A stretch of DNA of 64,000 nt. Source: Streptomyces sp. NBC_00425. Its GTDB lineage: Bacteria > Actinomycetota > Actinomycetes > Streptomycetales > Streptomycetaceae. Of the stretch, positions 5,515-21,866 are shown one piece after another; the first letter of the stretch is position 1, and every line of letters starts with the position of its first letter. A program made the position numbers and the translations under genes. The stretch lies in assembly GCF_036030735.1 (NCBI RefSeq), contig NZ_CP107928.1:1116001-1180000 (forward strand). Direction: 5' to 3'. The notes beneath the pieces were generated by a model that saw nothing but the letters and a program-made list of their open reading frames with translations, was not told the DNA's origin and made no database searches.

Positions 5515-7701
5515 TCAGCGCCGCAGGTTCGCGGCGGTGGCGGCGGCGACGACGCGGTCCCGTTCGGCCTGCGTGAACCGTCCGTCGGCCTGCCAGGCGT
5601 CGGCCAGGGCGCGCACCGCGGCCAGAAAGGCGGCGGACGTCGAGAACGGCGCCTGCTGCCACAGGACGTCGAGGAAGGTCAGGCCGTCGCCGCGGGAGCG
5701 GTTCGGCACGCCCGAGTCGGACGCGCCGAAGACGACGACCGGCTCCACGCGCCGGAAGTAGGCGTGGTACCGGGCGTCGTCCGCGACATGGAACGGGGCC
5801 AGGGTCAGACCGTGTGTGGTGAAGTACTGCGGACGGCCCTGCGGACGGATCACGTCGGCCAGGTCACCGCGCAGGGTGAAGTCCTTGTAGAACGAGAACT
5901 GCCGGAAGTCCGCGGCCTGGCTCCGCGCGACCAGCAGGACCGGCCCGTGGAAGAGGGACTGCACGGACGGATCGTCCGACGCCCGCTCCACGCGTAGCCG
6001 GTAGGGCGCGGAGACGGTGACCTGGTCGCCGCGCCGCCAGTCCCTGCGCAGGGTGAGAAAGCTGCCGGGGACCGCCGACACCTGCTGCTGGACCCCGTTG
6101 ACGGCGACGGTGAAGCCGGCCGTGGCCCAGGAGGGGACCCTGAGCTTCACATCGAGGCCGCCACCGCCCTCGCGGAACGTCAGCGTGCGGACGCCCTCCG
6201 CCGGATACGTGCTCGTCTGCTCCACGACCAGCCCGCGCTCCGGCCACCGCAGCGTCGAGGCGAGGTAGAGGTTGACGTACAGCGCGTCGCCGGCGGCCGA
6301 GCGGAAGTACACCGAGTCCTGGTACTTGGTGTGGTTCTCCATGCCGGTGCCGCCGCAGCAGGTGCCGGTGTTGTCGTACTGGCGCACCGTCCCCGGGCCC
6401 ATGCCGACGAAGTAGGTGACCTCCGGGCTCGTCGTACTGCTCACGTCCCGGCGGGAGGCCAGGATGTGGTTGGTGAGGCCGCGCTCGTAGTAGTCCATGT
6501 AGGCGGCGTCCGGTGCGTGGAAGAACAGCTGACGGCTCAGTTTGAGCATGTTGTACGTCGCGCAGGTCTCGGCGTTGTCCTCGCCCAGGGTGGCCGCGAT
6601 CGCGCCCCGCGCCCGGAAGATCTCCCCCTTGCCGGCGCCTCCCTGACTGTAGGTGCGCGGACCCACGACCATGCCCCAGAAGTTGCGGGCCGCGGCCGCG
6701 TACTGCGGCTCACCCGTGTGGTCGAAGAGCCGCACGTAGCCGGTGAACTGGGGGATGTGCTGGTTGGCGTGCCGGCCGTCCAGGACGTCCCGGTCGCCGG
6801 CGCAGGCGTCCAGGAGTGCGGTGTTGTCGAAGCAGCGGGCGGCGGCGAGGTGCTCCGCCCGGCCGGTGAGCGCGTACAGGTCCGCCATCACCTCGTTCAT
6901 CCCGCCGTACTCCCCGGCGATGTAGATCGACCACATGCGCTCCAACTGCGCCTTCGGCAGGCGTCCGAGGCGGCTGTGCACCCAGTCGCCCATCTTCGAG
7001 GCGATCGTCAGCGCCTGTGCGTTCCCGGCCAGGGTGTGCGCGTCGAGCAGCCCGCGCATGATCTTGTGGCAGGTGTAGTAGGGGGCCCAGATGGTGGGGT
7101 AGGTCGTGTAGCTCTCCAGCAGGATGAACTGGGTCTCCGGGTAGGCCGCCAGGTAACCGGGGTGACTCGGCTTCGGCGAGCCGTGTTCGGCCAGTGCCCG
7201 CTGACACTCTCCCAGCGCGGTCACCAGGTGGTCGAGCTTGGTCTTGAGGGCGGTCTCCCGGGTGTCGGCGTACGCCTGGGAGATGAGCGTGAGGAAGTGG
7301 CCGCCGTAGTGGCCGCGGAGGTTGCCGTCGGACGTCTCCCAGCCGCCCGGCGGCAGGGCGCCGCGGGTGTCGAGCCCCGCGTTGGCCCGGAAGACGGCGA
7401 GGATCCGGTCGGCCGGGTAGGACCTGGCGTAGCCGAGCATCAGGTCGCGCTTGCGGCGGAACGCACCGTCGCCGAGGGTCACCTGGTCCAGTGCGAAGGG
7501 CTGGACGGCCCAGGTCGGCGGGACGGGCGCGACGGCCGCGGCGGGAGCCGCGGAAGCGGCGGACGCTCGGGAGGCCGTCGTCGCCGTGGCCGGCCCGGCG
7601 GCGGCACGGGCCGCCGCGGGAGTCGCGTTCAGCAGCGGCGCCGCGGCCGCGGTCCCGGTGGCCATCCTCAACAGATGGCGGCGAGAGGGGGGTTGGGACA
7701 T
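5515..7701 (-). CDS. Secreted beta-L-arabinofuranosidase, DUF1680 superfamily (GH146-like), Tat signal
   Basis: A 728-residue protein beginning MSQPPSRRHLLRMATG, a twin-arginine signal followed by an Ala-rich segment, so it is probably exported folded. The (alpha/alpha)6 barrel carries the superfamily's metal-site residues: Glu378 and Cys380 in ETCATYNMLKL, and Cys448-Cys449 in TCCGGTGMENH. GGMNEVMADLYALTG and CCGGTGMENH resemble GH146 more than classical GH127. These enzymes remove L-arabinofuranose with retention, using a zinc-bound Cys nucleophile. It is the last gene of the minus-strand arm of the arabinoside locus. The family call is strong; the exact linkage is inferred. Confidence 0.85.
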   Translation of the reverse strand: MSQPPSRRHLLRMATGTAAAAPLLNATPAAARAAAGPATATTASRASAASAAPAAAVAPVPPTWAVQPFALDQVTLGDGAFRRKRDLMLGYARSYPADRILAVFRANAGLDTRGALPPGGWETSDGNLRGHYGGHFLTLISQAYADTRETALKTKLDHLVTALGECQRALAEHGSPKPSHPGYLAAYPETQFILLESYTTYPTIWAPYYTCHKIMRGLLDAHTLAGNAQALTIASKMGDWVHSRLGRLPKAQLERMWSIYIAGEYGGMNEVMADLYALTGRAEHLAAARCFDNTALLDACAGDRDVLDGRHANQHIPQFTGYVRLFDHTGEPQYAAAARNFWGMVVGPRTYSQGGAGKGEIFRARGAIAATLGEDNAETCATYNMLKLSRQLFFHAPDAAYMDYYERGLTNHILASRRDVSSTTSPEVTYFVGMGPGTVRQYDNTGTCCGGTGMENHTKYQDSVYFRSAAGDALYVNLYLASTLRWPERGLVVEQTSTYPAEGVRTLTFREGGGGLDVKLRVPSWATAGFTVAVNGVQQQVSAVPGSFLTLRRDWRRGDQVTVSAPYRLRVERASDDPSVQSLFHGPVLLVARSQAADFRQFSFYKDFTLRGDLADVIRPQGRPQYFTTHGLTLAPFHVADDARYHAYFRRVEPVVVFGASDSGVPNRSRGDGLTFLDVLWQQAPFSTSAAFLAAVRALADAWQADGRFTQAERDRVVAAATAANLRR

Positions 7702-7734
7702 GGTCGGACTCCCATCGTGGGGGCGTGGGTGGTC

Positions 7735-7788
7735 GGGTCGGACGGTGTGGACGTCATGGCCGGGTCGGACGGTGGGGACGTCATGGCC
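7735..7788. repeat. 27-bp tandem duplication upstream of the GH146-like gene
   Basis: Two copies, 7735-7761 and 7762-7788, differ at one base. They lie in the 224-base gap between the two DUF1680 genes, in the leader of the Tat-exported enzyme. I see no other feature in that gap. Confidence 0.85.
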
Positions 7789-7925
7789 GGAGCGGATGTC
7801 GCCGAGGGCCGGGGCTCGTCAGGCCGGCGTCGGAGCCGGTGCTCCTCACCCGGGTCCGCCGCCCCGGGGCCCCGCGCGGGCCCGGCGCTTTCCGCGGCGC
7901 ACGAGGGCGCCCGGTCGACGCACGT

Positions 7926-10085
7926 CTACCTCCCGGGGGGTTCGGCCGGCGGTGGCGTCGTGGGCAGCCACACGCGCATCGTCGAGGGGCCTCGGTTCGC
8001 CCAGGAGTGGTAGGGCACGAGAACGATGTCGGCACGTTCTCCGACCGGCGCGGCGGCCTCGTCGAGCGGCGCGTACGGCCACCGGGTGTCGGCGTCCGGC
8101 CCGGCCCGTCCATCCGCGTTCGTATCCGTCTTCGTATCTGTATTCGTATAGGCATCCGTATCCGCGTCTGTTCCCGTGTCTGTTTCGCCGCCTGTTTCGC
8201 CGCCTGTTTCTCCGTCTGTTTCTCCGTCTGTTTCTCCGTCTGTTTCTCCGTCTGTTTCTGCGGCGGGATCGGTGGACTCACCGGGGGTCCCGGACTCCGC
8301 CGTTCGCGCGTCCGGCGCCGCGACCAGTGCGCCCGACGCCACGACGCTGCCGTCCGGCCCGTCCTGCGGCTGGACGGACGGGTTCACCCGGACGGCGTCG
8401 ACCTCGTGGCCCGGCGGGAGGTCGACGGACTCGGCGCAGTAGACGAGCGGCCCGCGCTGGACGGCGACGGTGCCGCGTACGGCGTCGATGCGGGGGTCGG
8501 GGGCGATCCAGCGCGGGGCCACGGGCAGCTCCAGCCGTATCTCGTCGCCGGGCCGGAAGCGCCGGGTGACGGCGACCGTGCCCGGCGAGACAGCGCGGCC
8601 CACCCCGTCCGGGTCGACCAGTCGGGCGTCGGCGCCCGTGGCCCAGGCGGGCACCCGGAGCGACAGGGTCCAGGGGTGCTCCGGCGACCGGTCGATCCGT
8701 ACGCTCACGCTGGCGCCGGTCGGGTAGTCGGTGCGCACCCGCAGGGCGACGTTCCGGCCGCCGGCGAGGGAGGTGGCGAGCTCGGCGTCGGCGTACTGGT
8801 GCAGTTGCACGCCGTCGTCGTCGGCCGTCGCCAGGTAGGCGGGCAGCAGGGCAAGGGTCCGCGCCACGTTGGTCGGGCAGCAGGACACCGCGAACCAGGG
8901 GGCGCGCAGGCCCGAATCTGCGCGCGGGCTCTGCTCGTCGGCGGCGGACGTCGTCCCACGGCGGCGCCGGTGCAGGGTGTTGGCGTAGAAGAAGGTCCGG
9001 CCGTCCTCGGACGGGGAGGTCGCGACCACGTTGAACAGGGTCCGCTCGGCGAGGTCGGCGTAGCGCGGTTCACCGGTGGCCAGCAGCAGCCGCCAGCTGA
9101 GCATCACGGAGGCCACGGCCGCGCAGGTCTCGGAGTAGGCGCGGTCGGGGGGCAGGACGAAGTCGTCGCCGAAGGACTCGTCCCGGTGGTGGGATCCCAT
9201 GCCGCCGGTCAGGTAGGTGCGCCGGGCGACGGCGGTCTCCCACTGCCGGACGACCGCGGCGAGCAGCGCGTCGTCCCCGGTCTCCACCGCCACGTCCACG
9301 GCGCCGGCCGCGAGGTAGAGGGCGCGTACGGCGTGGCCGCGCAGCGTGGTGGCCTCCCGGACGGGCACGTCGTCCTGGTAGTAGGCGCGGCCGAACTCGG
9401 ACTCGGCGAGGGTGTGCCGGCCGCGGCGGTCGACGAAGAGCGCGGCCTGGTCGAGGTAGCGCTGCTCGCCGGTCGTCCGGGCCAGTTCCACCAGGGCCGT
9501 CTCGATCTCCGGGTGCCCGCAGACGCGTTCGATGCCACCAGGGCCGAAGGCCGCGCACACGTGGTCGGCGGCGCGCCGGGCGATCTTCGCCAGTTCGCCC
9601 TCGCCGCGGGCCCGCATCTGGGCCACGCCCGCCTGGATCAGATGCCCGTAGCAGTACAGCTCGTGGCCCCATTCGAGGTCGCTGTACCGGGGCTGTTGCC
9701 CGGGGCGGCCGAAGGCGGTGTTGAGGTAGCCGTCCGGTTCCTGGGCGGGAGCGATGGTGTCGGTGAGTGCGGCGATCTGCGCGTCGAGCGCGGCGCCGGA
9801 GCCGTGGCGGGCCTCCCAGGCCATGGCCTCGATCAGTTTGTAGACGTCGGAGTCGGCGAACTCGCGGCCACGCCGGTCCCGGTGGATCCGGCCCTCCACC
9901 GCGGCGCGGAAGTTGCCCGTCCAGCCGACGCGTTCCATCCAGTCGCGGCAGTGGTCGAGTGTCGCGGTCGCGTTGACCTGTCGGCGCAGGGCCCAGAAGC
10001 CCCCGGTGATGGTGACCTCGTCGAGACCCAGCGGCCGCAGCAGCCCCCGGCTCGGCGCCACCGGCAGGACGGCTGACCCCGTCAT
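7926..10085 (-). CDS. Cytoplasmic beta-L-arabinofuranosidase, GH127 (HypBA1-like)
   Basis: A 719-residue DUF1680 protein without a signal peptide. Glu319 and Cys321 (YSETCAAV) and Cys402-Cys403 (SCCPTNVART) match the catalytic zinc-thiolate set of bifidobacterial HypBA1, with nearly the same spacing. HypBA1 cleaves beta-1,2-linked arabinobiose to L-arabinose inside the cell. The adjacent importer fits uptake of short arabinosides. ATG at 10085 is preferred over GTG at 10097 because GAGGGAGA precedes it. Near residues 608-660, in the C-terminal beta domain, there is an odd Glu-Thr-Asp-Gly repeat followed by alternating Thr-Asp, encoded by a DNA tandem repeat. Both sides of it keep conserved sequence. 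Confidence 0.85.
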   Translation of the reverse strand: MTGSAVLPVAPSRGLLRPLGLDEVTITGGFWALRRQVNATATLDHCRDWMERVGWTGNFRAAVEGRIHRDRRGREFADSDVYKLIEAMAWEARHGSGAALDAQIAALTDTIAPAQEPDGYLNTAFGRPGQQPRYSDLEWGHELYCYGHLIQAGVAQMRARGEGELAKIARRAADHVCAAFGPGGIERVCGHPEIETALVELARTTGEQRYLDQAALFVDRRGRHTLAESEFGRAYYQDDVPVREATTLRGHAVRALYLAAGAVDVAVETGDDALLAAVVRQWETAVARRTYLTGGMGSHHRDESFGDDFVLPPDRAYSETCAAVASVMLSWRLLLATGEPRYADLAERTLFNVVATSPSEDGRTFFYANTLHRRRRGTTSAADEQSPRADSGLRAPWFAVSCCPTNVARTLALLPAYLATADDDGVQLHQYADAELATSLAGGRNVALRVRTDYPTGASVSVRIDRSPEHPWTLSLRVPAWATGADARLVDPDGVGRAVSPGTVAVTRRFRPGDEIRLELPVAPRWIAPDPRIDAVRGTVAVQRGPLVYCAESVDLPPGHEVDAVRVNPSVQPQDGPDGSVVASGALVAAPDARTAESGTPGESTDPAAETDGETDGETDGETDGETGGETGGETDTGTDADTDAYTNTDTKTDTNADGRAGPDADTRWPYAPLDEAAAPVGERADIVLVPYHSWANRGPSTMRVWLPTTPPPAEPPGR
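8105..8262. repeat. In-gene 12-bp tandem repeat and flanking low-complexity tract
   Basis: About seven 12-base copies (8179-8262) encode ETDG/ETGG on the minus strand. They are followed, toward the C terminus, by a Thr-Asp-rich tract (8105-8178). The unit keeps the reading frame, so copy number can vary without truncating the GH127 enzyme. Confidence 0.9.
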
Positions 10086-10206
10086 GTTCTCCCTCACCAG
10101 TTCATGCCTTCGGTTCGTCCTCTCGGTTGCCCGTCAAGGGTGTTCAGGTGGTCGTCGGTCCCGGTGGGTCCGGCCTCGGCGGCGGTCCGGCCGGTCGCGC
10201 GGCGCC

Positions 10207-11061
10207 TCAGCCCTTGAGCGCGCCCGACATGAAGCCCCGTACGTAGTGCCGTTGCAGCAGCAGGAAGAGGAGGAGGCAGGGCACGGCGAGAACCACCACC
10301 CCGGCCTCGGTCGCGCCGTAGTCGACGGCGCCCATGCTCTGCTGCCGCAGGTTCGCGACGGCGAGCGGCAGGGGGGCCTTGCGGCTGTCGGAGATGAGGA
10401 TCAGCGGAGCGATGAAGTCGTTCCAGGCCGCGAGGAAGGCGAAGAGACCCACGGTGATCAGTCCCGGCCGCACCGCCGGAAGCAGGACCCGGCGCAGGGC
10501 GCCCGCGGTGCCGCAGCCGTCGACGAGGGCCGACTCCTCCAGTTCGCGCGGCACCGCCTCGAAGGAGATCCGCATCATGAAGGTGGCGAACGGCAGTTGG
10601 AACATCGCCAGCACCAGACTCAGCCCGAGCAGCGAGTTCTGCAGATGGAGCCTGCCGAGCAGCACGTACAGCGGGATGAGCAGGGTGGCGTAGGGGACCA
10701 TGAGGATCGCCAGGGTCAGCAGGAACAGCAGGTTCTTGCCGGGGAACTCGAAGCGTGCGAAGGCGTAGCCGCCGAGCAGCGAGACCCCGAGGGTCAGGGC
10801 GACGGTGAGCACGGAGACGAGGGTGCTGTTGCCGAGGTAGCGCCACAGCCCGGCGTCGTAGTCGAGCAGTGTGCGGTAGTTGCCGAGGCCGTGGCCGGAC
10901 TCCTGCGCGGTGCCGGGCTGGGCGCTGACCGAGGCCCAGGCGTTCCACAGCAGCGGGAAGAGGAAGATGACGGCCAGTCCTGCGGCGGCGACGTAGTGGG
11001 GCGTCCGGCCGAGGGCTCGGGTGAGCACCGGGGTGTCCCTTCTCCAGGAGGCGGGGGTCAT
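10207..11061 (-). CDS. Sugar ABC transporter permease, MalG/CUT1 type
   Basis: A 284-residue inner-membrane protein with about six hydrophobic segments. The EAA loop, ELEESALVDGCGTAGALRRV, precedes the last two membrane segments and contacts the ATPase. Homology is to MalG/UgpE permeases of the CUT1 family. The ATG at 11061 overlaps the stop of the upstream permease by four bases, implying coupled translation. No ATPase is in this operon; Streptomyces commonly use a shared MsiK ATPase for such importers. Given the flanking GH127 enzymes, the likely cargo is a short arabinoside. That cargo is inferred. Confidence 0.88.
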   Translation of the reverse strand: MTPASWRRDTPVLTRALGRTPHYVAAAGLAVIFLFPLLWNAWASVSAQPGTAQESGHGLGNYRTLLDYDAGLWRYLGNSTLVSVLTVALTLGVSLLGGYAFARFEFPGKNLLFLLTLAILMVPYATLLIPLYVLLGRLHLQNSLLGLSLVLAMFQLPFATFMMRISFEAVPRELEESALVDGCGTAGALRRVLLPAVRPGLITVGLFAFLAAWNDFIAPLILISDSRKAPLPLAVANLRQQSMGAVDYGATEAGVVVLAVPCLLLFLLLQRHYVRGFMSGALKG

Positions 11062-12020
11062 GACTCGTCGGAGCGGCGCAGACCGCGGAACTGCACGGCG
11101 TTCAGCAGCAGCAGCGCGCCCAGCACGAGGATCGACAGGGCGGCCGCGGTGCCGAGGTTCAGCCGCTGGAACGCCTCGCGGTAGATGAGCTGCACGACGG
11201 TGACGGTGCTGTTGTCGGGTCCGCCCTTGGTGAGGACGAAGAACTGGTCGAAGGCCAGCAGTGAGCCGGTGACGCAGAGCAGCAGGGACAGGGCGAGCGA
11301 CGGACGCAGCAGCGGCAGGGTGATGGAGCGGAAGATCTGGCCGCGGCTCGCGCCGTCCATCCGGGCGGCCTCGTACACCTCGTGCGGGATGCGCTGCAGG
11401 CCGACGAGGAGGATCAGCATGTAGAAGCCGGCGAACTTCCAGACGACGAGGAAGACCGTCGACAGCAGGGCGGAGGTCGGGGTGCCGAGGAAGGACACCG
11501 GGCCGTCGACGAGGCCGAGGTGTTCGAGGATGCTGCTGAGCGGTCCGGTGGTGGGGCTGTACAGGCCCCAGAAGAGCAGCGAGGCCGAGGCCAGGCCGAC
11601 GGCTCCCGGCAGGAAGTAGACCGTGCGGAAGAAGCCGGCGCCGGGGCGGGACTCCTGGACGAGCAGGGCGAGCAGCAGGGCCAGGCCCAGGAGGACGACG
11701 GTGACGACCGCCGTGTAGAGGAGGGTGAAGCGGACGGCGGGCCAGAACAGCGGGCTGTCCATGACGTCGGTGTAGTTCTCGGGGGCGTTGGCCCCCTGGT
11801 CCCCCGCGAGCAGCGGCCAGTCGTCGAGGGACATCTGTCCGACCAGCAGCAGGGGCAGCAGGAAGAAGACGATGACGAAGACGGCCGTGGGGGCGGCGTA
11901 CGCGAGGCCCTGGATCCTCCGGGAATGCCGGCGCGGGGCGGTGGTGCGGGGGCGGCGGGCGGGACGCTGCGTCGGGGGCGGCTGCTCGGCGGTCGCCCGG
12001 TCGGGCGCCTTGACCTGCAT
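11058..12020 (-). CDS. Sugar ABC transporter permease, MalF/CUT1 type
   Basis: A 320-residue permease with a basic cytoplasmic N terminus (residues 1-35), then about six membrane segments beginning LAYAAPTAVFVIVFFLLPLL. The EAA loop is EVYEAARMDGASRGQIFRSI. It pairs with the overlapping downstream permease to form the channel. ATG at 12020 follows GAGGAG. Upstream, between it and the binding-protein gene, are five perfect 26-base repeats, which may lower expression of the permeases relative to the binding protein. It belongs to the LacI-controlled minus-strand operon. Confidence 0.9.
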   Translation of the reverse strand: MQVKAPDRATAEQPPPTQRPARRPRTTAPRRHSRRIQGLAYAAPTAVFVIVFFLLPLLLVGQMSLDDWPLLAGDQGANAPENYTDVMDSPLFWPAVRFTLLYTAVVTVVLLGLALLLALLVQESRPGAGFFRTVYFLPGAVGLASASLLFWGLYSPTTGPLSSILEHLGLVDGPVSFLGTPTSALLSTVFLVVWKFAGFYMLILLVGLQRIPHEVYEAARMDGASRGQIFRSITLPLLRPSLALSLLLCVTGSLLAFDQFFVLTKGGPDNSTVTVVQLIYREAFQRLNLGTAAALSILVLGALLLLNAVQFRGLRRSDES

Positions 12021-12084
12021 GGCTCTCCTCTGCCGTGTGCGGTGGGGAGGGGTCGTGCGGGAGCACGGCGTCCGGCCGCGTTTC

Positions 12085-12257
12085 CATGCCGTGCGCCCGC
12101 GTCGTACGTCGGTGCCGTGCGCCCTCGTCGTGCGTCGGTGCCGTGCGCCCTCGTCGTGCGTCGGTGCCGTGCGCCCTCGTCGTGCGTCGGTGCCGTGCGC
12201 CCTCGTCGTGCGTCGGTGCCGTGCGCCCTCGTCGTGCGTCGGTGCCGTGCGCCCTCG
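12085..12257. repeat. 26-bp tandem repeat between binding protein and permease genes
   Basis: Five perfect copies run 12111-12240, with a degenerate copy at 12085-12110 and a partial one at 12241-12257. They fill most of the 265-base gap between the binding-protein stop and the first permease. The copies are contiguous with no spacers, so this is not a CRISPR array. 26 bases is not a multiple of three, so the tract is non-coding. Confidence 0.95.
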
Positions 12258-12285
12258 CGTGCCGTGCCGTGCGAGGTCGTGCGGG

Positions 12286-13599
12286 TCAGTCGGCCAGGGA
12301 GGCGGTGACGGCCTTGTTGTCCTTCTCGAGCGACGCCCCGTCGCCGAAGACCGCGTCGCGCATCAGGGACAGCCAGGGCCCGTTGGGGTCGTTGAAGGTC
12401 TGTCCGAACTTCAGGGCGTACGGGGTGCGGCCGTCCGCGACCAGTTGGTTGACGGCTACCAGACGGGGGTCGGCGGCGGAGTACTTGTTGGCGGCGAGGT
12501 CGGTGCGGGCCACGACGTCCTTGTGTGCGGCGACCACGTTCACCTGGGCGTCGTCGCCCAGTGACCATGCGAGGAAGTTCCAGGCCTGGTCGACCTTCTT
12601 GCTGGTGGCCGAGACGCCGACGGCGTCGCCGCCGACGAAGGTGGACCTGCCGCCGTCGGGTCCGGGGATGGGAGCGACGCCGAGGTCGAGGTTCTTGGGC
12701 ATCAGGCCCAGCGTGGTCGACGGCATGGGCATGACCCCGACCTTGCCCTTGGGGAAGACGCCGGTCCAGGTGGCGCCGGTCTCGTCGCGCGCGCCGGGGG
12801 CCACGATGTCGTCCTTCACCCATCCGCGGTAGGTGTCGTAGACCTTCTTCGCGGTGGCGGAGTCGAGGTTCGCCCCGGTGCCCTCCTTGTTCAGCACCTC
12901 CGCTCCCCCGGCCCAGATGGACGGCCACCAGGTGAAGACGCCGCAGCCGCCGCAGTTGCCGCCGAAGAAGGTGCCGTCGACTCCGTTGCCCAGCGCGTCG
13001 ACGGCCCGGGCCTGCCGGTCCCAGTCGGCGAGGGTGGCGGGCGGCTTCTCGGGGTCGAGCTTGGCCTTGCGGTAGAGGTCCTTGTTGTAGAAGAGCACCG
13101 ACAGGTCCAGCGTGTGCGGGACGACGTACTTCCTGCCCTTGTACGTGCCGGCCTTGATGTGCGACTGGGCCAGGCTCGCGGCGAAGGGCAGGGCGTCGAT
13201 GCGTTGGGTGAGGTCGGCGAAGAGCCGGCTGGTGGTGTAGTTCGGCACGAACACCACATCGGAGGCGAAGAGGTCGGGGAGGTCGTGGGAACCTGCCGCC
13301 GCGCCCACCTTGGCCTGGTAGTCGTCGGTGGGGACGACGGTCAGCTCGATCTTGTTCTTGTGACTGGCGTTGTAGGCCTTGACCAGGGCCTCGCTCTGCG
13401 GCCGGGTGGCCGCCCGCGTCCACATCGTCAGCGTGGCGCCGTCGTCGACGCCCTTGGCGTCGGCCGTCCGGCCGGATCCGCCGGCAGAATCGCCGTCCCC
13501 CGATCCGCAGGCCGTGATGAGGCTCGCAGCGGCGAGGAACGCGACGGCGCCGACGGCGAGTCTGCGAACGGGTCCACGTGGTCCGGTCGTGCTCCCCAT
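12286..13599 (-). CDS. Sugar-binding lipoprotein of ABC importer (arabinoside locus)
   Basis: A 437-residue solute-binding protein of the CUT1 family. The lipoprotein signal ends in SLITACGSG, with Cys31 as the lipidated residue, so it is anchored on the outer face of the membrane. The mature protein has the typical two-lobed pattern (DGATLTMWTRA near the start, FFGGNCGGCGVFTWWPSIW in the middle). The Cys pair in that segment is unusual and may form a disulfide. ATG at 13599 follows AGGGGGATCGTC. It is first in a minus-strand operon with two permeases and two DUF1680 enzymes. Its promoter carries a palindrome likely read by the divergent LacI regulator. Confidence 0.9.
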   Translation of the reverse strand: MGSTTGPRGPVRRLAVGAVAFLAAASLITACGSGDGDSAGGSGRTADAKGVDDGATLTMWTRAATRPQSEALVKAYNASHKNKIELTVVPTDDYQAKVGAAAGSHDLPDLFASDVVFVPNYTTSRLFADLTQRIDALPFAASLAQSHIKAGTYKGRKYVVPHTLDLSVLFYNKDLYRKAKLDPEKPPATLADWDRQARAVDALGNGVDGTFFGGNCGGCGVFTWWPSIWAGGAEVLNKEGTGANLDSATAKKVYDTYRGWVKDDIVAPGARDETGATWTGVFPKGKVGVMPMPSTTLGLMPKNLDLGVAPIPGPDGGRSTFVGGDAVGVSATSKKVDQAWNFLAWSLGDDAQVNVVAAHKDVVARTDLAANKYSAADPRLVAVNQLVADGRTPYALKFGQTFNDPNGPWLSLMRDAVFGDGASLEKDNKAVTASLAD

Positions 13600-13646
13600 G
13601 ACGATCCCCCTAGTGTGGGCTCTTCGAACGGAAAGGAACCGAAAAG

Positions 13647-13684
13647 GCTTTCTGAAAGCTAGGACCCGGCTGACAGCCCGTCAA
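13647..13684 (-). promoter_or_regulatory. Promoter with overlapping LacI-type operator for the arabinoside operon
   Basis: On the minus strand, TTGACG (13679-13684) and TAGCTT (13656-13661) are 17 bases apart, a near-consensus vegetative promoter. The palindrome GCTTTCTGAAAGC (13647-13659) overlaps the -10 box, so a bound repressor would block polymerase. The adjacent divergent LacI gene is the obvious candidate regulator. Confidence 0.7.
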
Positions 13685-13803
13685 TCCCCCTGCAGCAAGC
13701 GGTATTGAGAGCTCCGCCGAAACCTGTGAAATCGCCTGGGCCGGGCCACGGCCGAAACAACTCGCGTACGGTTTACTCACGCGCCGCGCGACAGGAGATC
13801 CCC

Positions 13804-14832
13804 ATGACACCGGCCCCCGGCACCTCTCGTTCGCACCCCGCCACGCTCAGCGACGTCGCCCGGCTGGCCGGCGTGTCCATCGCCACCGCGTCCAAGGCGC
13901 TCAACGGCCGCAGCCAGGTGCGCGCCGAGACCCGGCAGCGGGTGATCGAGGCCGCCGAACGGCTGGCCTTCCGGCCCAACCAGCTGGCCCGCGGACTGCT
14001 CGTGGGACGGTCGGGCACCGTGGGTCTGCTCACCAGCGACCTCGAGGGCCGTTTCAGCATCCCGATCCTGATGGGCGCGGAGGACGCGTTCGGGGCGGGC
14101 GAGGTCGCCGTGTTCCTGTGCGACGCCCGTGGCGACGCGATCCGTGAACAGCACCATGTCCGGGCTCTGCTGGGGCGCCGCGTCGACGGCCTCATCGTGG
14201 TGGGCAGCCGGACCGACCCGCGCCCGTCGCTGGGACGCGAGCTGCCCGTGCCCGTCGTCTACGCCTACGCGCCGTCGGACGATCCGGCGGATCTGTCCAT
14301 CGTCCCGGACAGCGTCGACGCCGGCCGGATCGCAGTGGAACACCTGCTGGCCTGCGGGCGGAGCCGGATCGCGCACATCACCGGCGACCCCGGGTACCTC
14401 GCGGCCCGGGAGCGGGCCGAGGGCGCCGGGGCCGCGCTGGCCGCCGCCGGCCTCGCCCCGGTCGGCGAACCGCGGTTCGGCGCCTGGTCGGAGGGCTGGG
14501 GCCGGGCGGCCACCGCGCTGCTGCTGGACCGGCATCCGGATCTCGACGCCGTGCTGTGCGGCAGCGACCAGATAGCCCGCGGCGTCATGGACGTCCTGCG
14601 GGAGCGCGGCCACCGGGTGCCGGAGGACGTGGCGGTGATGGGCTTCGACAACTGGCAGGTCCTGACCGCCTCTTCGCGCCCGCCGCTGACCAGCGTCGAC
14701 ATGAACCTGGAACAGGTGGGGCGGGCGGCCGCACACGCCTTGTTCCTCGCGATCGGCGGGGCGCAGCGCTCGGGGATGGAGACGGTGCGCGGCCGGGTGG
14801 TCATCCGGGAGTCGACGGCGCCGCTGTCCTGA
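13804..14832 (+). CDS. LacI-family transcriptional regulator of the arabinoside locus
   Basis: A 342-residue LacI/GalR protein. The DNA-binding helices are TLSDVARLAGVSIATASKAL (residues 14-33). The rest is a periplasmic-binding-protein-like sensor ending with VMGFDNWQVLTASSRPPLTS and ending in a typical STAPL tail. ATG at 13804 follows AGGAGATCCCC. It lies between two divergent sets of arabinoside genes. Operator-like palindromes occur in both flanking promoters, so it probably represses both arms until an arabinose-containing sugar is sensed. The ligand is not evident from sequence. Confidence 0.88.
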   Translation: MTPAPGTSRSHPATLSDVARLAGVSIATASKALNGRSQVRAETRQRVIEAAERLAFRPNQLARGLLVGRSGTVGLLTSDLEGRFSIPILMGAEDAFGAGEVAVFLCDARGDAIREQHHVRALLGRRVDGLIVVGSRTDPRPSLGRELPVPVVYAYAPSDDPADLSIVPDSVDAGRIAVEHLLACGRSRIAHITGDPGYLAARERAEGAGAALAAAGLAPVGEPRFGAWSEGWGRAATALLLDRHPDLDAVLCGSDQIARGVMDVLRERGHRVPEDVAVMGFDNWQVLTASSRPPLTSVDMNLEQVGRAAAHALFLAIGGAQRSGMETVRGRVVIRESTAPLS

Positions 14833-14874
14833 GCCTCGCTCCCCGGGGCCCTGAGCGCCGGTGAACTCGCGCTG

Positions 14875-14915
14875 AAGCGCTTTCCCTTGACAGGGCATCA
14901 GGTCGCTCCTACGTT
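14875..14915 (+). promoter_or_regulatory. Promoter and LacI-type operator for the secreted hydrolase genes
   Basis: TTGACA (14887-14892) and TACGTT (14910-14915) are 17 bases apart. The palindrome AAGCGCTT (14875-14882) abuts the -35 box, and a second half-symmetric element, GCGAAAACCTTTTAGG, begins just after the -10 box. The same AAGCGCTT core recurs at 27920 in front of a DUF6807 gene. Confidence 0.65.
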
Positions 14916-14995
14916 GCGAAAACCTTTTAGGTGAGTTTCCTCGCACGTATGTCAGGCGCATGACACCTCGATACCGCCAACCGGAGAGGGAGCCC

Positions 14996-17900
14996 ATGAA
15001 GCGCCTCCTCGTCGCCCTCGTGCTCATCCTGTGTTCCGTCTGTTCCGTCAGCCCGGCCTCCGCCGCGCAGACCATCGGGTTCCCCGTCTTCAACGGGCCC
15101 GCGATCCCGGCACCGCCCGTCGCCTACACGCCCGGCGACATGATGCGCAGCATCTACGACGCCGAGAGTTCCGGCACCGACTTCTGGATGGACCGCCTGC
15201 TCGCCCGCTCCGGCGACGACCCGGCGGGACCCTGGCTGATGAGCCGGGGGCGGGCACTCTTCATGAAGACCCACAACCCCGCGGTCCTCGGGTTCGGCGG
15301 CCATGTCGCCTACTGGGAGAGCGTCAACGACAACAACGCCTACACCGTCGCGATCACCCCGGGCGCCTTCACCGAGCAGGTCTCCCAGCGCCGGCAGGTC
15401 CCGAGCCACTGGAGGAGCGTCCACACCAGCGGCTCGATCGCGGTCACCCAGACCAAGTTCATCACCGGGAACAACGTCGCCGTCACCAACCTGTCGATCA
15501 AGAACAACGGCGGCAGCTCCACCACCTTGCAGTTGCGGGCGACGTCGCCGTACGCCACCACGGGCAGCGGCAGCGAGCTGACCGGCCAGGTCAACGCCTA
15601 CAACAACCTCACCACCATCCGGCCGCGGCTCACCGGCGACGGATTCAGCGTCTCGGGCGGCGGCCTCAACCGGTCCGTCACCATCGGCGCCGGAGCCACG
15701 GTGACCGCCAAGCTCGTGATGGGCTTCGTCACCGACGAGATCCCCGAGTCGCTCACCGAGTACAACGCCTACGCGGGCTACAGCGACGCCACCGCGTTCG
15801 CCACCCACGTCAAGGCCTACAACCTGTGGTGGGCGAAGAACGTGCCCTACATCGACGTGCCCGAGCCCGCGATCAAGAAGAACATCTACTACCGCTGGTG
15901 GCTGATGCGCTTCAACAACCTCGACGCCGACATCCCCGGGCAGACCTTCCAGTTCCCGACGTCGACCGAGGGCGTCCTCGGGTACAACAACGCGATCGCG
16001 CTCACCCAGCCCATGCACATCGACGACCTCAAGTACCTGCGCGACCCGTCCTACGCCTACGGGGACTGGCTCAGCGTCGGCCAGACCTCCAAGGGCGGCC
16101 GCTTCCTCGACAACCCCGGCGACCCGGAGAACTGGTCCAACAGCTACACCCAGTTCATCGCCGAAGCCGCCTGGAAGAGCTACCAGATCCACGGAGGGCA
16201 GCCGGCCATCGCCGGCAACCTCGCCCGCTACGCCGAGGGCGACGTCAAGGGCCAGCTCGCCTACTACGACCACGACAACAACAAGCTGATCGAGTACGAC
16301 TGGGGCGCGCTCACCGGCAACGACGCCGACGCGGTCTCCTTCCACTGGAAGCCCGGCTCCATGGACCGCGCCGAGTCCGCCTACCAGTACAGCGGCGCGC
16401 TCGCCGCCGCCCAGGCCTACGAGGCGACCGGCAACACCGCCAAGGCCGCCGAGATGCGCACCCTCGCGACGCAGATCAAGGACGCCATCGTCAACGTCCT
16501 GTGGAACCCGGGCCGGCAGCTGTTCGAGCACCGGCTGAAGTCGACCAACGAGTGGGTCCCCTGGAAGGAGATCAACAACTACTACCCGTTCTCGGTCGGC
16601 GCCGTCCCCAACACGGCGACGTACAAGCAGGCCCTGCGCCTCTACGACGACCCCGCGCAGTACCCGGTGTTCCCCTTCTACACCGCCAACCAGGTCGACA
16701 AGAAGGCGGCGGCCGACGCCGGCAACCCCGGCTCCAACAACTTCTCCACCATCAACTCCACCGTGCAGTTCCGGCTGTACTCCTCCGTCCTGCGCAACTA
16801 CCCCAACTCGTGGATGAACGCCACGGACTACAAGAAGCTGCTGTACTGGAACACCTGGGCGCAGTACGTCGGCGGCAACACCCAGTGGCCCGACGCCAAC
16901 GAGTTCTGGGCCGACTGGAACGGCAGCGGCATCGACTACCGCTCGTGGATCCACCACAACATCCTGGGCAGCAGCAACTGGACGGTGATCGAGGACGTCG
17001 CGGGGCTGCGGCCGCGCAACGACGCCAAGGTGGAGGTCTCGCCGATCAACATCGGCTGGAGCCACTTCACCGTCAACAACCTCCGCTACCGCAACGCCGA
17101 CCTGTCGATCGTCTGGGACGACCCGGCCGACGGGGTGGTGCGCTATCCCGGCGTCCCCGAGGGTTACTCGATCTACGTCAACGGCACCCGGGCCGCCACC
17201 GTCAACTCACTCGTGCCCTTCACCTGGGACCCCGCCACCGGTGACGTCACCACGAGCGGCACGGTCACCCACCACACGGCCGTGTCCGGACTGCAGGCCC
17301 CCCAGCAGGTCGTGCAGAACAGCCCCCGCATGGTCGACATGCTCGCCAAGGCCGGCGTCGACCTCACCGCGGACCTGACCAACCTGGCCGCCGGGGCGAC
17401 GACCACCGCCTCCTACACCGGCTCCGGCAGCAACGTCTCCGGCGCGGTGGACGGCTATCCCACCAACGAACCCTTCTGGGGCGCCGGCGGGTCCCCCAAC
17501 AGTCAGGACTGGTACGAACTCAACTTCGGCACGGCCCGCACACTGAACGAGATGCGCCTGTACTTCAAGGACAGCCGCCCGGCCTCGGCCACCTACCGGG
17601 CGCCGTCCGCCTACGCCGTCCAGTACCACAACGGCAGTTCCTGGGTGAACGTGCCGGGGCAGAGCAAGAGTCCGGCAGCGCCACGGGCCAACTACAACCT
17701 GGTGCAGTTCCCGGCGGTCACCGCCCAGCGCGTGCGGATCCTGGCCACCAACGCCTCCGGTGCCAAGACCGGTCTCACCGAGGTCAAGGCGTACAACCGG
17801 GGCGGCGCCCAGCCACCCCAGCCACCGGCCAACCTGGCGACGTCCGCGACGCCCACCGCGTCGTACACCTCCCCCTGGGAAAGCGTCGCCGCCATCAACG

Positions 17901-18256
17901 ACGGCGTGGACCCGCCGTCGTCCGACGACACGGTGAACCCGCGCTGGGGCACCTGGCCGCAGACCGGTCAGCAGTGGGCCGAGCTGACCTGGCCGTCGGC
18001 GAAGAACGTCGACAGGGCCGACGTGTACTTCTTCGACGACGACGACGGCATCGACATGCCGGCCTCCTGGAAGCTCCAGTACTGGAACGGCAGCGCCTAC
18101 GCCGACGTGCCCGGCGCGAGCGGCTATCCGCTGGCCAGGAACCAGTACAACTCCGTCTCCTTCACCGCTGTGAACACCACACGGCTACGGGTGCTGCTCA
18201 CCGGCAACGGCACCGACTCCGTCGGCCTCCTCGAAGCAAAGGTGTACGGACCGTGA
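14996..18256 (+). CDS. Large secreted (alpha/alpha)6-barrel glycoside hydrolase with two discoidin/CBM32-type domains
   Basis: A 1086-residue exported protein. A Sec signal ends near residue 24 (VSPASAA). A beta-sandwich (about 30-260) is followed by a helical barrel (about 270-700) with LTQPMHIDDLKYLRDPSYAYG and HWKPGSMDRAESAYQYS, resembling MGH1-like/GH63-clan hydrolases. Two F5/8-type C domains start near residues 795 (NLAAGATTTASYTG) and 945 (NLATSATPTASYTS). I cannot assign the GH family from sequence alone. GH121 or GH142 would fit best, because their known members act on beta-L-arabinosides, the substrates of the neighbouring DUF1680 enzymes. ATG at 14996 follows GGAGAGGGAG. It begins the plus-strand arm and overlaps the next gene by four bases. 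Confidence 0.7.
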   Translation: MKRLLVALVLILCSVCSVSPASAAQTIGFPVFNGPAIPAPPVAYTPGDMMRSIYDAESSGTDFWMDRLLARSGDDPAGPWLMSRGRALFMKTHNPAVLGFGGHVAYWESVNDNNAYTVAITPGAFTEQVSQRRQVPSHWRSVHTSGSIAVTQTKFITGNNVAVTNLSIKNNGGSSTTLQLRATSPYATTGSGSELTGQVNAYNNLTTIRPRLTGDGFSVSGGGLNRSVTIGAGATVTAKLVMGFVTDEIPESLTEYNAYAGYSDATAFATHVKAYNLWWAKNVPYIDVPEPAIKKNIYYRWWLMRFNNLDADIPGQTFQFPTSTEGVLGYNNAIALTQPMHIDDLKYLRDPSYAYGDWLSVGQTSKGGRFLDNPGDPENWSNSYTQFIAEAAWKSYQIHGGQPAIAGNLARYAEGDVKGQLAYYDHDNNKLIEYDWGALTGNDADAVSFHWKPGSMDRAESAYQYSGALAAAQAYEATGNTAKAAEMRTLATQIKDAIVNVLWNPGRQLFEHRLKSTNEWVPWKEINNYYPFSVGAVPNTATYKQALRLYDDPAQYPVFPFYTANQVDKKAAADAGNPGSNNFSTINSTVQFRLYSSVLRNYPNSWMNATDYKKLLYWNTWAQYVGGNTQWPDANEFWADWNGSGIDYRSWIHHNILGSSNWTVIEDVAGLRPRNDAKVEVSPINIGWSHFTVNNLRYRNADLSIVWDDPADGVVRYPGVPEGYSIYVNGTRAATVNSLVPFTWDPATGDVTTSGTVTHHTAVSGLQAPQQVVQNSPRMVDMLAKAGVDLTADLTNLAAGATTTASYTGSGSNVSGAVDGYPTNEPFWGAGGSPNSQDWYELNFGTARTLNEMRLYFKDSRPASATYRAPSAYAVQYHNGSSWVNVPGQSKSPAAPRANYNLVQFPAVTAQRVRILATNASGAKTGLTEVKAYNRGGAQPPQPPANLATSATPTASYTSPWESVAAINDGVDPPSSDDTVNPRWGTWPQTGQQWAELTWPSAKNVDRADVYFFDDDDGIDMPASWKLQYWNGSAYADVPGASGYPLARNQYNSVSFTAVNTTRLRVLLTGNGTDSVGLLEAKVYGP

Positions 18257-19749
18257 CCCGTTCCAGATGCCTGTCCGCGCTCGTCGCGGCACTCCTCACG
18301 GCGGTCGCCTTCCTGGTGGCGCCGCCCACCGCCTCCGCCGCCGTCGCGTTCACCTCGACGGGGGTCAACCAGAGCGGCGGCAACTGCCTCGACCTGCCCG
18401 GGGGTTCGACGACCGTGGGGGCCCAGTTGCGGGCCTTCGCCTGCGCCGCGGGCGCCAACCAGAACTTCGGGTACACCCTGGTCTCCGGCACCACCGACAC
18501 CTACTCGATCACCGGGCAGTCCGGCCAGTGCGTCGACGTCCACGGGGCGTCCACGGCGGACAACGCGGCGATCATCCAGTGGCCCTGCCACGGTGGGACC
18601 AACCAGCAGTGGCGACTCGTGCCGGTGGCGGTGAGCGGAACCGACAAGACCTTCAACCTGGTCTCCGTGAGCTCGGGCAAGTGCGTGACGCCGAGCGGCG
18701 GTTCGTCGGCCTCGAACACCGACCTGGTGCAGCTGCCCTGCGCCACGGCGGGCGGCAGGGTGTGGCGGCTGCCCGCCTTCGCCGGCGGCGGCACGGGGAC
18801 GAAGACCTTCACCAACCCGCTCTCCCAGCACGGACCCGACCCCTGGCTGACGTACTACAACGGTTACTACTACCTCGCCACCACGACCTGGAACTCGACG
18901 GTCACCATGCGCAAGGCGAGCACCCTCGCCGGCCTCGCCTCCGCCTCCGACCAGGTGATCTTCAACCTCACCCGGCCCAACGGCGCCGGCACCATGTGGG
19001 CGCCGGAGTTCCATCTGCTCGACGGTCCGAACGGCAAGCGGTGGTACTTCTACTACACCGCCGGGCGGGAGCCCTACGACCTGGGCACCCAGCGGATCCA
19101 CGTGCTGGAGAGCACCGGGCTGGACCCGATGGGTCCCTACAGCTTCAAGGCCGACCTGCTCGACCCGACCCAGGACGACACCTGGGAGCTCGACCCGGGC
19201 ATCCTCCAGCTCAACGGACAGCTCTACCTGCTGGGCACGTTCTACAACGGCTCGCAGCCGATGTTCATCCGGCCGCTGTCCAACCCCTGGACGGCGAGCG
19301 GCACCCGCCGCGTGCTCTCCACACCGACCTACAGCTGGGAGACGGTGGGCGGCGCGGTCAACGAGGGCGCCGAGGTCCTCCAGCGGGGCGGGAAGACGTT
19401 CATCGTCTACTCGGCCAGTCACTGCTCCACACCCGACTACAAGCTGGGCATGCTCACCTACAACGGCGGCGACCCGCTCAGTTCCTCCTCGTGGGTCAAG
19501 TCGCCCAACCCGGTCTTCCAGCGATCCAACGCCAACGGCGTCTACGGACCTGGGCACAACGGCTTCTTCAAGTCACCGGACGGCACCGAGGACTGGATCG
19601 TCTACCACGCCAACAACTCCACGAGCGGCGGCTGCGACATGAACCGGACCACCAGAGCGCAGAAGTTCACCTGGAACGCCGACGGCACGCCTAACTTCGG
19701 CGCCCCGGTGGCACTCGGCGTGACCCTGCCCGCACCCTCGGGGGAGTAG
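18253..19749 (+). CDS. Secreted ricin-type lectin (CBM13) - GH43 alpha-L-arabinofuranosidase
   Basis: A 498-residue secreted enzyme. After a Sec signal (to about residue 31) comes one ricin-B/CBM13 trefoil (about 35-180) with NCLDLPG, QCVDVHG and KCVTPSG repeats. A GH43 five-bladed propeller follows. The GH43 acids are Asp196 (HGPDPWLTYYNGYYYL), Asp314 (WELDPGI) and Glu371 (NEGAEVL), the expected base, modulator and acid. GH43 enzymes of this type release alpha-L-arabinofuranose from arabinan or glycoprotein side chains. The GTG start overlaps the previous stop by four bases, implying translational coupling. Its lectin domain is paralogous to that of the next gene. Exact linkage specificity is inferred. 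Confidence 0.85.
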   Translation: MTRSRCLSALVAALLTAVAFLVAPPTASAAVAFTSTGVNQSGGNCLDLPGGSTTVGAQLRAFACAAGANQNFGYTLVSGTTDTYSITGQSGQCVDVHGASTADNAAIIQWPCHGGTNQQWRLVPVAVSGTDKTFNLVSVSSGKCVTPSGGSSASNTDLVQLPCATAGGRVWRLPAFAGGGTGTKTFTNPLSQHGPDPWLTYYNGYYYLATTTWNSTVTMRKASTLAGLASASDQVIFNLTRPNGAGTMWAPEFHLLDGPNGKRWYFYYTAGREPYDLGTQRIHVLESTGLDPMGPYSFKADLLDPTQDDTWELDPGILQLNGQLYLLGTFYNGSQPMFIRPLSNPWTASGTRRVLSTPTYSWETVGGAVNEGAEVLQRGGKTFIVYSASHCSTPDYKLGMLTYNGGDPLSSSSWVKSPNPVFQRSNANGVYGPGHNGFFKSPDGTEDWIVYHANNSTSGGCDMNRTTRAQKFTWNADGTPNFGAPVALGVTLPAPSGE

Positions 19750-19753
19750 TCGG

Positions 19754-20914
19754 ATGACCCGATCCCGGTTCCTCCCCCTCTGGGCGATGGTGCTCACGCT
19801 GATGTTCGGTGCGGTCATGGGCGCCGTCGCGATCGCGCCGCCCGTCCACGCCGCGACGGCGTTCGCCTCCACCGCGGTCAACCGCGGCGGCGGCAACTGC
19901 CTGGACGTGCCGGGCAGTTCCACCGCCGACGGACTCCAGCTCATCCAGTGGACCTGCCACGGCGAGGCCAACCAGAACTTCACCTTCACCCCGGTCGGCG
20001 GGACCACCGACCAGTACGGCATCGGCACGTCGGCCGGCGGACGGTGCGTGGACGTCAACGGAGCGTCCGGCGCCGACAACGCCACGATCGTCCAGCGGGC
20101 CTGCGGCACGGGCGCCGGTCAGAAGTTCCGTCTCGTGCCCGTGACGGTCAGCGGCACCACCGACGTCTTCAGTCTGCAGTCGGTGTCCTCCGGCAAGTGC
20201 GTCACCCCCGCCGGCGACTCCTCGGCCTCCGGCACCGGCCTCGTCCAGCTGCCCTGCACCGGCGCCGCGGCCCGGACCTGGCGGCTGCCCGGCTTCACCG
20301 GCAGCGGCGGCGGCCCGACCACTCCGCCCACGAAGACCGTCCGGGTGTACTGGCTGAAGCCCTCCGACGTCCCGTTCGACCAGAGGTACCCCGACGGCAT
20401 CGCCAAGGTGATGCGCGAGGCACAGCGCTACTACCGGCAGGAGCTCGGCAAGACCTTCAAGCTGAACACCACCGTGGTGGAGGTCGTGAACGGCGACCAG
20501 CCCCGGAGCTGGTACGAGAACACGCCCAACGGCGGCGACCGCTACTGGTGGGCCGTCACCAACATGCAGAACGAACTCGCCAGGAAGTTCGGCCTGAACA
20601 ACCCCGACAGCCGCTGGCTGAACGTGGGCGAGATCAGCGCCGAGGGAGAAGGCGCCGGCGGGGGCGCGAGCCCCGGCTGGGTCGTCCTGAGCGGGCACGA
20701 CGCCGACGGCGCCGCGGGCACCAGCGGACAGTCGATGAACCGCTGGTACGGCGGGATGGTCCACGAACTCGGGCACGCGTTCGGTCTGCCCGACTCGTCC
20801 TCGACCGACGGCACACCGATGTCCGCGTCTTTCTACGACTACCCCGACACGCACTTCAGCCAGAGCCAGAAGAACCAGATCCTGGGCGGCCCCTACGGGA
20901 GCTTCCTGTCCTGA
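19754..20914 (+). CDS. Secreted ricin-type lectin - metzincin-like zinc metalloprotease
   Basis: A 386-residue secreted protein that starts four bases after the GH43 stop. A Sec signal (to about residue 34) and a CBM13 trefoil (about 36-185, close kin of the GH43 lectin) precede a Pro-Thr linker and a 190-residue catalytic domain. The zinc motif HELGHAFGLPD places His337, Glu338, His341 and Asp347 in the HExxHxxGxxD pattern, which snapalysin and some other metzincins use. A Met in GTPMSASFYDYP may form the Met-turn. Inside an arabinoside operon, a glycan-targeted protease suggests attack on glycosylated cell-wall proteins. Family membership beyond metzincin-like is uncertain. Confidence 0.8.
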   Translation: MTRSRFLPLWAMVLTLMFGAVMGAVAIAPPVHAATAFASTAVNRGGGNCLDVPGSSTADGLQLIQWTCHGEANQNFTFTPVGGTTDQYGIGTSAGGRCVDVNGASGADNATIVQRACGTGAGQKFRLVPVTVSGTTDVFSLQSVSSGKCVTPAGDSSASGTGLVQLPCTGAAARTWRLPGFTGSGGGPTTPPTKTVRVYWLKPSDVPFDQRYPDGIAKVMREAQRYYRQELGKTFKLNTTVVEVVNGDQPRSWYENTPNGGDRYWWAVTNMQNELARKFGLNNPDSRWLNVGEISAEGEGAGGGASPGWVVLSGHDADGAAGTSGQSMNRWYGGMVHELGHAFGLPDSSSTDGTPMSASFYDYPDTHFSQSQKNQILGGPYGSFLS

Positions 20915-20948
20915 CCCGGCGCGCGGCGGGCCCGCGGGGGCCCCGTGG

Positions 20949-20985
20949 ACCTCGGCGGGGCGTCGCACCGACGCCCCGCCGAGGT
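20949..20985. terminator. Perfect 16-bp stem-loop, bidirectional terminator
   Basis: Stem 20949-20964 pairs perfectly with 20970-20985 around a five-base loop. It lies between the ends of the convergent metalloprotease and jelly-roll protein genes and can stop transcription from both. Confidence 0.85.
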
Positions 20986-21035
20986 GTGTCGTCACGCGTC
21001 CCTGTACCGCGGCACTGCGTGCGACACGCTCCCTG

Positions 21036-21866
21036 TCACGGGGCGCACCCGCCGACCCGCCGGGTGCTGAGCGCCACGTCGTCCATGCGGACGTCGTACG
21101 ACGAGGGCGTCGGGCCGGCCTGGTACAGCTGCCAGCCCAGCTTGAGCTTGTCGAAGCGGGGGAAGACGAAGTCGTCCGCACTGCCCCCGTGCTCCTTGGT
21201 GGAGACGGTCAGATCGGAGCGCTCCACGCCGTCCTGGTACACGGTGACGCGGTTGTCGGTGGCGTCGAGATGGAACTCCACGCAAGCCCAGGTCGCGGCC
21301 GTGGCGGGAGCGGAGGTGCGCCACGCGGTCCAGTCCCCGGTGGGGCCGAGATCGGAGCCGACGCCCCAGAAGTTCGCCTGCGAGGTGGGCACGTACTGGC
21401 CACCCAACGGGCGTACCAGCGTGGGGTCGTCGGCGCCGGACACCTCGGCGACGGTCCAGTGCGCCCAGTCGGGAGCGGTCGGGAACCCGTCGACGCGCAG
21501 CCGCAGCCGGGCCCAGAAACTGTTCCCGGCGGGTGCGAGATCGGACAGGACGAGGAAGGCGCGGCCGTTGCCCTCCGTGTGCAGCCGCAGTTCGCGGCCG
21601 TGGCCGGTGCTGCTGGGTTCGACGGTCAGGGAGCCGTCCTTGGCGTCGGTGGTCCAGCCGTGGCCCGCGGTGACCGGACCGAGCGGGAGCCGGTCGAAGT
21701 CCTCGCGGACGAAGGTCTTGCGGGAGACGGTGTCACCGGCGGCGCGGGTGGGGCGGTCGGCGGAGGCGGTGGGTTCGGCGGGGCCGGCAGAGGCGGTGGG
21801 GGGTAACGCGAGCAGTGCGCCCGATGCGGCCAGCAGGGCGGCCGCGATCTTCCTCATGCGTGTCAT
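21036..21866 (-). CDS. Secreted jelly-roll protein, Cip1-like
   Basis: A roughly 276-residue secreted protein. The signal peptide ends around LPPTASAGPAE. The mature part is a beta-rich concanavalin/jelly-roll-like fold with PDWAHWTVAEVSGADDP, GVGSDLGPTGDWTAWRTS and CVEFHLDATDNRVTVYQDG. The pattern recalls fungal and Streptomyces Cip1 proteins, secreted accessory proteins of cellulolytic cultures, some with lyase activity. It converges on the arabinoside operon and probably acts outside the cell on plant polymers. ATG at 21866 is chosen over 21857 or GTG at 21884, but none has a clear ribosome-binding site. The Cip1 assignment is from memory of fold motifs. Confidence 0.6.
   Translation of the reverse strand: MTRMRKIAAALLAASGALLALPPTASAGPAEPTASADRPTRAAGDTVSRKTFVREDFDRLPLGPVTAGHGWTTDAKDGSLTVEPSSTGHGRELRLHTEGNGRAFLVLSDLAPAGNSFWARLRLRVDGFPTAPDWAHWTVAEVSGADDPTLVRPLGGQYVPTSQANFWGVGSDLGPTGDWTAWRTSAPATAATWACVEFHLDATDNRVTVYQDGVERSDLTVSTKEHGGSADDFVFPRFDKLKLGWQLYQAGPTPSSYDVRMDDVALSTRRVGGCAP

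Follow-up and report, generated by a model that had tools for sequence, protein, structure and literature searches.

A Streptomyces locus probably dedicated to plant hydroxyproline-rich glycoproteins, with beta-L-arabinoside enzymes and a recurrent partner metallopeptidase

Introduction

Extensins are hard to digest owing to their dense arabinosylation. In Bifidobacterium longum, the enzymes HypBA1, HypBA2 and HypAA, the importer BauABC and the regulator BauR bring GH121, GH127, a GH43, an ATP-binding cassette (ABC) importer and a LacI protein together in one locus (PMC5928203, PMC7263609), and the disaccharide, once set free, is taken up before the GH127 step (PMC5928203). Here, we describe a locus of similar content in Streptomyces sp. 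NBC_00425. It lies in a window of 64,000 nucleotides (the whole stretch of DNA analyzed, C1:1116001-1180000) on a single-contig genome of 9,805,310 bases, and consists of a LacI gene flanked by two divergent arms. The leftward arm encodes a solute-binding protein, two permeases, a GH127 and a GH146 enzyme, and the rightward arm a GH121 enzyme, a GH43 enzyme and a peptidase (Table 1). Its probable role in this actinomycete is to feed on hydroxyproline-rich glycoproteins (HRGPs) of plants, of the extensin type, possibly also on arabinogalactan proteins (AGPs), by an attack on both the sugars and the protein backbone.

A similar enzyme set is found in Xanthomonas euvesicatoria, where XeHypBA1, XeHypBA2 and XeHypAA act in turn on the tetra-arabinosyl hydroxyproline (Ara4-Hyp) of HRGPs, GH43 first, then GH121, then GH127 (PMC6085000). 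That set is under HrpX control, whereas the Streptomyces locus carries a LacI gene. The available text of the Xanthomonas account describes no peptidase or importer partner and expects the deglycosylated HRGPs to open to proteases. It also mentions hypBA2/hypAA homologues in Streptosporangium, Actinosynnema and Micromonospora (PMC6085000); GH121 in actinomycetes has thus been noted before.

Among peptidases, the Svx metallopeptidases of Pectobacterium and Dickeya have likewise been proposed to cut extensin (PMC9266454, PMC10815107). The O-glycopeptidases OgpA and AMUC_1438 of Akkermansia muciniphila are tied to mucin use, whereas the Streptomyces peptidase is tied to plant-arabinoside genes. 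According to one account, every known O-glycopeptidase stems from a host-adapted microbe (PMC9513282); the family described here is, in contrast, mainly actinomycete.

Results and Discussion

The GH121 enzyme and its operon

The large secreted hydrolase matched the beta-L-arabinobiosidase of PDB entry 6m5a (E 2e-180, query residues 74-802, in two stretches) and the NCBIfam HypBA2 model NF041578 (824 bits, profile positions 44-1033). The equivalog threshold of this model of 1709 positions, 3200 bits, was not reached. HypBA2 needs E383, D515 and E713 (PMC7263609), which correspond in the 6m5a alignment to E325, D443 and E636 of the protein as started at 14996; all three are kept in 39 of 39 sequences examined, among them that of the window. 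By homology, this protein is a GH121 enzyme of the HypBA2 type, and not a member of a family acting on non-arabinose substrates, the adverse outcome named in the preliminary description. Characterized GH121 members free beta-arabinobiose (beta-Ara2) from hydroxyproline (Hyp)-linked arabinosides (PMC7263609, PMC6085000). Discoidin-like domains follow the catalytic part. The protein has 1098 residues, with no C-terminal anchor seen, against 1943 for B. longum HypBA2.

The GTG start of the GH43 gene overlaps the GH121 stop codon and the peptidase gene starts 4 nt past GH43, so that the three genes would form one operon. Signal peptides, read by eye, are evident on all three products. Unlike in B. 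longum, the GH43 carries a lectin domain, a GH146 is added, and a secreted metallopeptidase is encoded in the GH121 operon.

A second GH121 type, 56-58% identical, was observed in two genomes (L145 and L150, in G249 and G170), where its gene separates GH127 from GH146 in the importer arm, with no peptidase within the stretch examined. A 1047-residue frame elsewhere in the Streptomyces genome (L005, L007; G000:C1:297102-299540) is distantly similar to the HypBA2 model in two of its parts.

Linkage and co-occurrence of the peptidase with the sugar genes

A scan of genome contigs returned at least 72 peptidase loci. Flanks of 10 kb or less were inspected, with neighbors called by a home-made GC-based gene caller (24 edge genes were empty); LacI or permease matches below 40% were left out of the linkage count, and L115 and G246:C45, one contig to judge by length, were counted once. 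Among the loci listed, the peptidase lies within that distance of genes of this locus in 17 of 72: four in Streptomyces, three each in Amycolatopsis and Lentzea, and one each in Micromonospora, Paractinoplanes, Kibdelosporangium, Dactylosporangium, Glycomyces, Actinophytocola and an Actinomycetales metagenome-assembled genome (MAG). The linked loci thus span nine named genera and one MAG. GH121 is present in 7 of the 17, and two (L082, L086) are linked through GH43 alone. Gene order varies: the peptidase may follow GH43 or GH127, separate GH127 from GH146, neighbor LacI, or adjoin GH121 on either strand.

The neighbor clusters found in at least four genera comprise both permeases, the solute-binding protein, GH127, LacI and GH121, as well as a ricin/peptidase cluster, a SARP-type-regulator-like one, one of no recognized family and a short antisense-looking open reading frame (ORF); the GH146 cluster spans three genera. 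Among the clusters that could be identified, the sugar-degradation families recurring in at least three genera are this locus's own. On the tree (71 rows, 20 of them linked), the linked state requires at least 9 changes, 8 of them forced by well-supported branches, against a mean of 17.7 for shuffled states (0 of 500 as low as 9). Linkage is therefore clustered, yet was gained or lost many times.

Co-occurrence was examined in a family sample (n=394, the window's genome included) and a phylum sample (n=396). The whole lectin-peptidase matched 381/394 genomes through its ricin domain, and the peptidase domain alone was therefore used as query. In the family sample, 7 genomes have the peptidase, 13 have GH121 and 5 have both (Fisher p 3.4e-7, a test that ignores the relatedness of the species), leaving two with the peptidase and no GH121. 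In the phylum sample, the peptidase and GH121 are each found in 3/396; the three genomes are identical for both and belong to the genus of the window. Moreover, when 20 species from 17 genera were chosen among the unlinked loci, GH121 was found elsewhere in the genome in 18, against 13/394 and 3/396 in a background made up of the whole family and phylum samples; an Actinoallomurus (L075) and one Streptomyces (L102) genome had none. Both linkage and co-occurrence support grouping the protease with the sugar genes. In one of the five family-sample genomes with both (G315, L139), the peptidase lies more than 8 Mb from the GH121 locus on the record.

Such a peptidase could instead mature the bacterium's own secreted proteins, for example the neighboring lectin-bearing enzymes, in keeping with gene packing that suggests co-transcription with GH121 and GH43. 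We regard this as very improbable: same-type GH121 and GH43 occur with no peptidase gene in 8 of the 13 GH121 genomes of the family sample, and the peptidase has a plant-wall-type binding domain of its own.

The lectin-peptidase

The catalytic domain of the peptidase comprises 192 residues and belongs to a family with no assigned function among the entries listed; the nearest named relatives of the window's protein are from Streptomyces. The motif HExxHxxGxxD is present in all 60 domain sequences, with H143, E144, H147, G150, D153 and M162 invariant. The signature HExxHxxGxx[HD] and a methionine for the Met-turn, as in metzincins (clan MA(M)), are thus both found, M162 presumably being the Met-turn residue in the model. 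The invariant residues past HELGH include G150, L151, P152, D153, T157, D158, G159, T160 and M162. Svx has the gluzincin motif HExxHX(8,28)E and M60-like carbohydrate-binding residues (PMC9266454); no match to that motif, and no invariant Glu after HELGH, was found in our sequences.

The closest solved folds of the modeled domain, among those listed by Foldseek or VIA-align, are OgpA and AMUC_1438. WYGGMxHELGH is common to the peptidase and OgpA, and the glycan-site aromatic residue six before the first His is shared in position (W137 in 60/60, W199 in OgpA, Y217 in AMUC_1438). The predicted fold suggests that the peptidase may be glycan-directed; to that extent it agrees with the preliminary description, which had proposed a glycan-targeted protease. 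In a protein of a Polyangiaceae MAG (P0098) and its close relatives, the peptidase domain occurs with no Pfam domain listed alongside.

The DUF1680 pair and the GH43 enzyme

The GH127 candidate matched 6ex6 (E 8.5e-95), 4qjy and 3wkw (E 3e-81), has the Glu and Cys motifs (ETC at 323, CC at 406), and is by these alignments of the GH127 type. The second DUF1680 protein (ETC at 378, CC at 448) looks like a GH146-type enzyme: its best PDB match is 5opj (E 1e-76), with 8k7x/8k7y also on top, entries that we take to be GH146, although the molecule names of the 5opj depositors differ. The genome has a third DUF1680 gene remote from the locus, with the highest score of the three (L001; G000:C1:9361034-9362197).

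For the GH43 domain, the nearest solved relative was 3akf (E 5.3e-67). We take 3akf to be the S. avermitilis exo-1,5-alpha-L-arabinofuranosidase, which presumably belongs to a GH43 subfamily other than that of HypAA. The locus was described beforehand as a counterpart of the B. longum system; this holds for GH121, GH127, the importer and LacI in one locus, and less well for equivalence of the GH43 with HypAA.

This GH43 relative and the presence of a GH146 would also suit a locus for pectic arabinan or for arabinogalactan side chains ending in beta-L-arabinofuranose (beta-L-Araf), with extensin a side substrate at most. A bifidobacterial GH146 does take Araf-beta1,3-Araf off AGPs and arabinan (PMC10850190). 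We consider this unlikely: GH121, whose characterized members work on Hyp-linked arabinosides, forms the conserved core together with GH43, whereas the examined stretches of several relatives (L137, L140, L141, L144) lack GH146, and a recurrent partner peptidase would make little sense for a pure polysaccharide.

Proposed function

Gene content, enzyme families, active-site residues, operon packing, the two operators and the linkage and co-occurrence of the peptidase are read from the sequences; from here on, the substrate, order of steps, inducer and glycan-dependent cutting are what we infer. Outside the cell, the ricin-domain GH43 would trim alpha-linked arabinose and GH121 would detach beta-1,2-arabinobiose from its Hyp. 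There too, the metallopeptidase with its ricin domain would cut the protein backbone, most likely beside a residue that bears a glycan, which is where its closest structural relatives cut. If its twin-arginine-like leader is genuine, GH146 would be exported; it would take off other beta-L-Araf caps. The CUT1 importer would take up arabinobiose, cytoplasmic GH127 would split it to L-arabinose, and the LacI repressor would govern both divergent arms via a common operator. In extensin, Ser residues next to arabinosylated Hyp bear alpha-galactose (PMC9266454). As this Ser-linked alpha-galactose resembles the alpha-N-acetylgalactosamine-Ser read by AMUC_1438, the peptidase could take its mark from either of the two sugars.

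Several observations weigh against this assignment to HRGPs. The GH43, nearest to 3akf, is at most a candidate for a HypAA-like cut at the alpha-1,3 bond of Ara4-Hyp, and GH146 is absent from the examined stretches of the relatives named above. The peptidase, missing from 8 of 13 GH121 genomes of the family sample, is optional, and the Fisher value for its co-occurrence ignores the relatedness of the species. At residues 151-170, the site of the Met-turn, the model has a confidence of about 63; the third zinc ligand position is Asp (D153, 60/60), as opposed to H215 in OgpA and H233 in AMUC_1438; and the beta-sandwich domain of OgpA is absent from the 192-residue domain. Furthermore, the cellulose-binding CBM2 replaces the ricin domain in many peptidase relatives, which points to the plant wall generally rather than to HRGPs, and 55 of the 72 listed loci are without any gene of this locus in the flank.

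The CBM2 domains, the unlinked loci and the Asp ligand would all fit a general secreted plant-wall protease, tethered by ricin-B or CBM2, blind to glycans, and near arabinoside genes through a common role in plant decay. We find this somewhat doubtful, as the identifiable recurrent sugar families are those of this locus, the rare GH121 is found in 18 of the 20 chosen unlinked genomes, and glycan-dependent peptidases provide the closest folds, their glycan-site Trp being conserved here in 60/60. We tentatively propose instead, as a possibility falling a little short of even, that the domain represents a new family of plant-directed O-glycopeptidases: Asp-ligand metzincins reading Ser-linked galactose or Hyp-arabinoside and cutting the extensin backbone beside the mark, a plant-wall counterpart of the mucinases that has repeatedly partnered GH121 in evolution.

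Of the extensin and AGP substrates proposed beforehand, the former is supported by GH121; GH146 alone points to AGPs, and no galactan-degrading family was found among the window proteins scanned. If the assignment to HRGPs is correct, the pairing of the known deglycosylating enzymes with a peptidase in one locus would explain extensin recycling by soil actinomycetes. A glycan-reading peptidase for these proteins would also help to map O-glycosylation in plants, much as OgpA serves for glycans of the mucin type. Among the literature matches listed, mostly open-access, no title or abstract start reported a GH121-peptidase locus, this family of peptidases, a tie between it and beta-arabinoside loci or a likeness to mucin O-glycopeptidases.

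Regulation and layout of the locus

The genes named in the preliminary description are all present, with corrected boundaries (Table 1), and its matching palindromes on the two arms were recovered: with up to one mismatch, GAAARCCTTTTMGGT occurs twice in the 9,805,310 bases, both times at this locus, once per arm. In the 10 other distinct loci listed, the site on the GH121 side is GAAAACCTTTTAGGT or GAAAACCTTTCAGGT. Similar candidate operators lie 5′ of the importer gene in L061, L062 and L115, and a GGAAACCGGTTTCC-like site stands there in Amycolatopsis (L085, L091, L097) and Actinophytocola (L117). By eye, TTGACA-N17-TACGTT precedes the GH121 operator; a strict sigma-70 and terminator scan of 13500-15100 gave no match. 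LacI probably starts at 13804 rather than 13705. No importer ATPase was found among the window proteins scanned, and an arabinose isomerase gene lies about 30 kb from the locus.

Table 1. Features of the Streptomyces locus (window coordinates; family names are assignments by similarity).
Feature	Position	Strand	Basis
GH146-type DUF1680 enzyme, twin-arginine-like leader (by eye)	5515..7701	-	PDB comparison
GH127 beta-L-arabinofuranosidase-type enzyme, no leader seen (by eye), low-complexity insert in C-terminal part	7926..10097	-	PDB comparison
MalG-type sugar permease	10207..11061	-	
MalF-type sugar permease	11058..12020	-	
Solute-binding lipoprotein of CUT1 importer	12286..13599	-	lipobox by eye
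Candidate operator facing importer arm, GAAAGCCTTTTCGGT	13638..13652	-	
LacI-family regulator (ORF from 13705)	13804..14832	+	
Candidate operator facing GH121, GAAAACCTTTTAGGT	14918..14932	+	
Secreted GH121 beta-L-arabinobiosidase-type enzyme, discoidin-like domains	14996..18256	+	
Secreted ricin-B lectin and GH43 enzyme	18253..19749	+	
Secreted ricin-B lectin and metallopeptidase	19754..20914	+	
Metallopeptidase domain, HExxHxxGxxD, O-glycopeptidase-like predicted fold	20336..20914	+	

The interval first proposed ran to 21866, and its genes through 20914 stand. The last gene (21036-21866, minus strand) shows sub-threshold Cip1/laminin-G similarity, was found in three of the other loci examined (G009, G052, L061) and is probably peripheral. 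Two ORFs, 10094-10948 (minus) and 18267-19694 (plus), were rejected as wrong-frame. Finally, tandem repeats were observed between the genes for the solute-binding protein and the MalF-type permease (12087-12273, 26 bp, 7.3 copies) and between GH127 and GH146 (7730-7796, 27 bp), and 12-bp repeats within GH127 (8119-8259) encode a low-complexity Thr/Asp/Gly/Glu stretch inside the C-terminal domain match.

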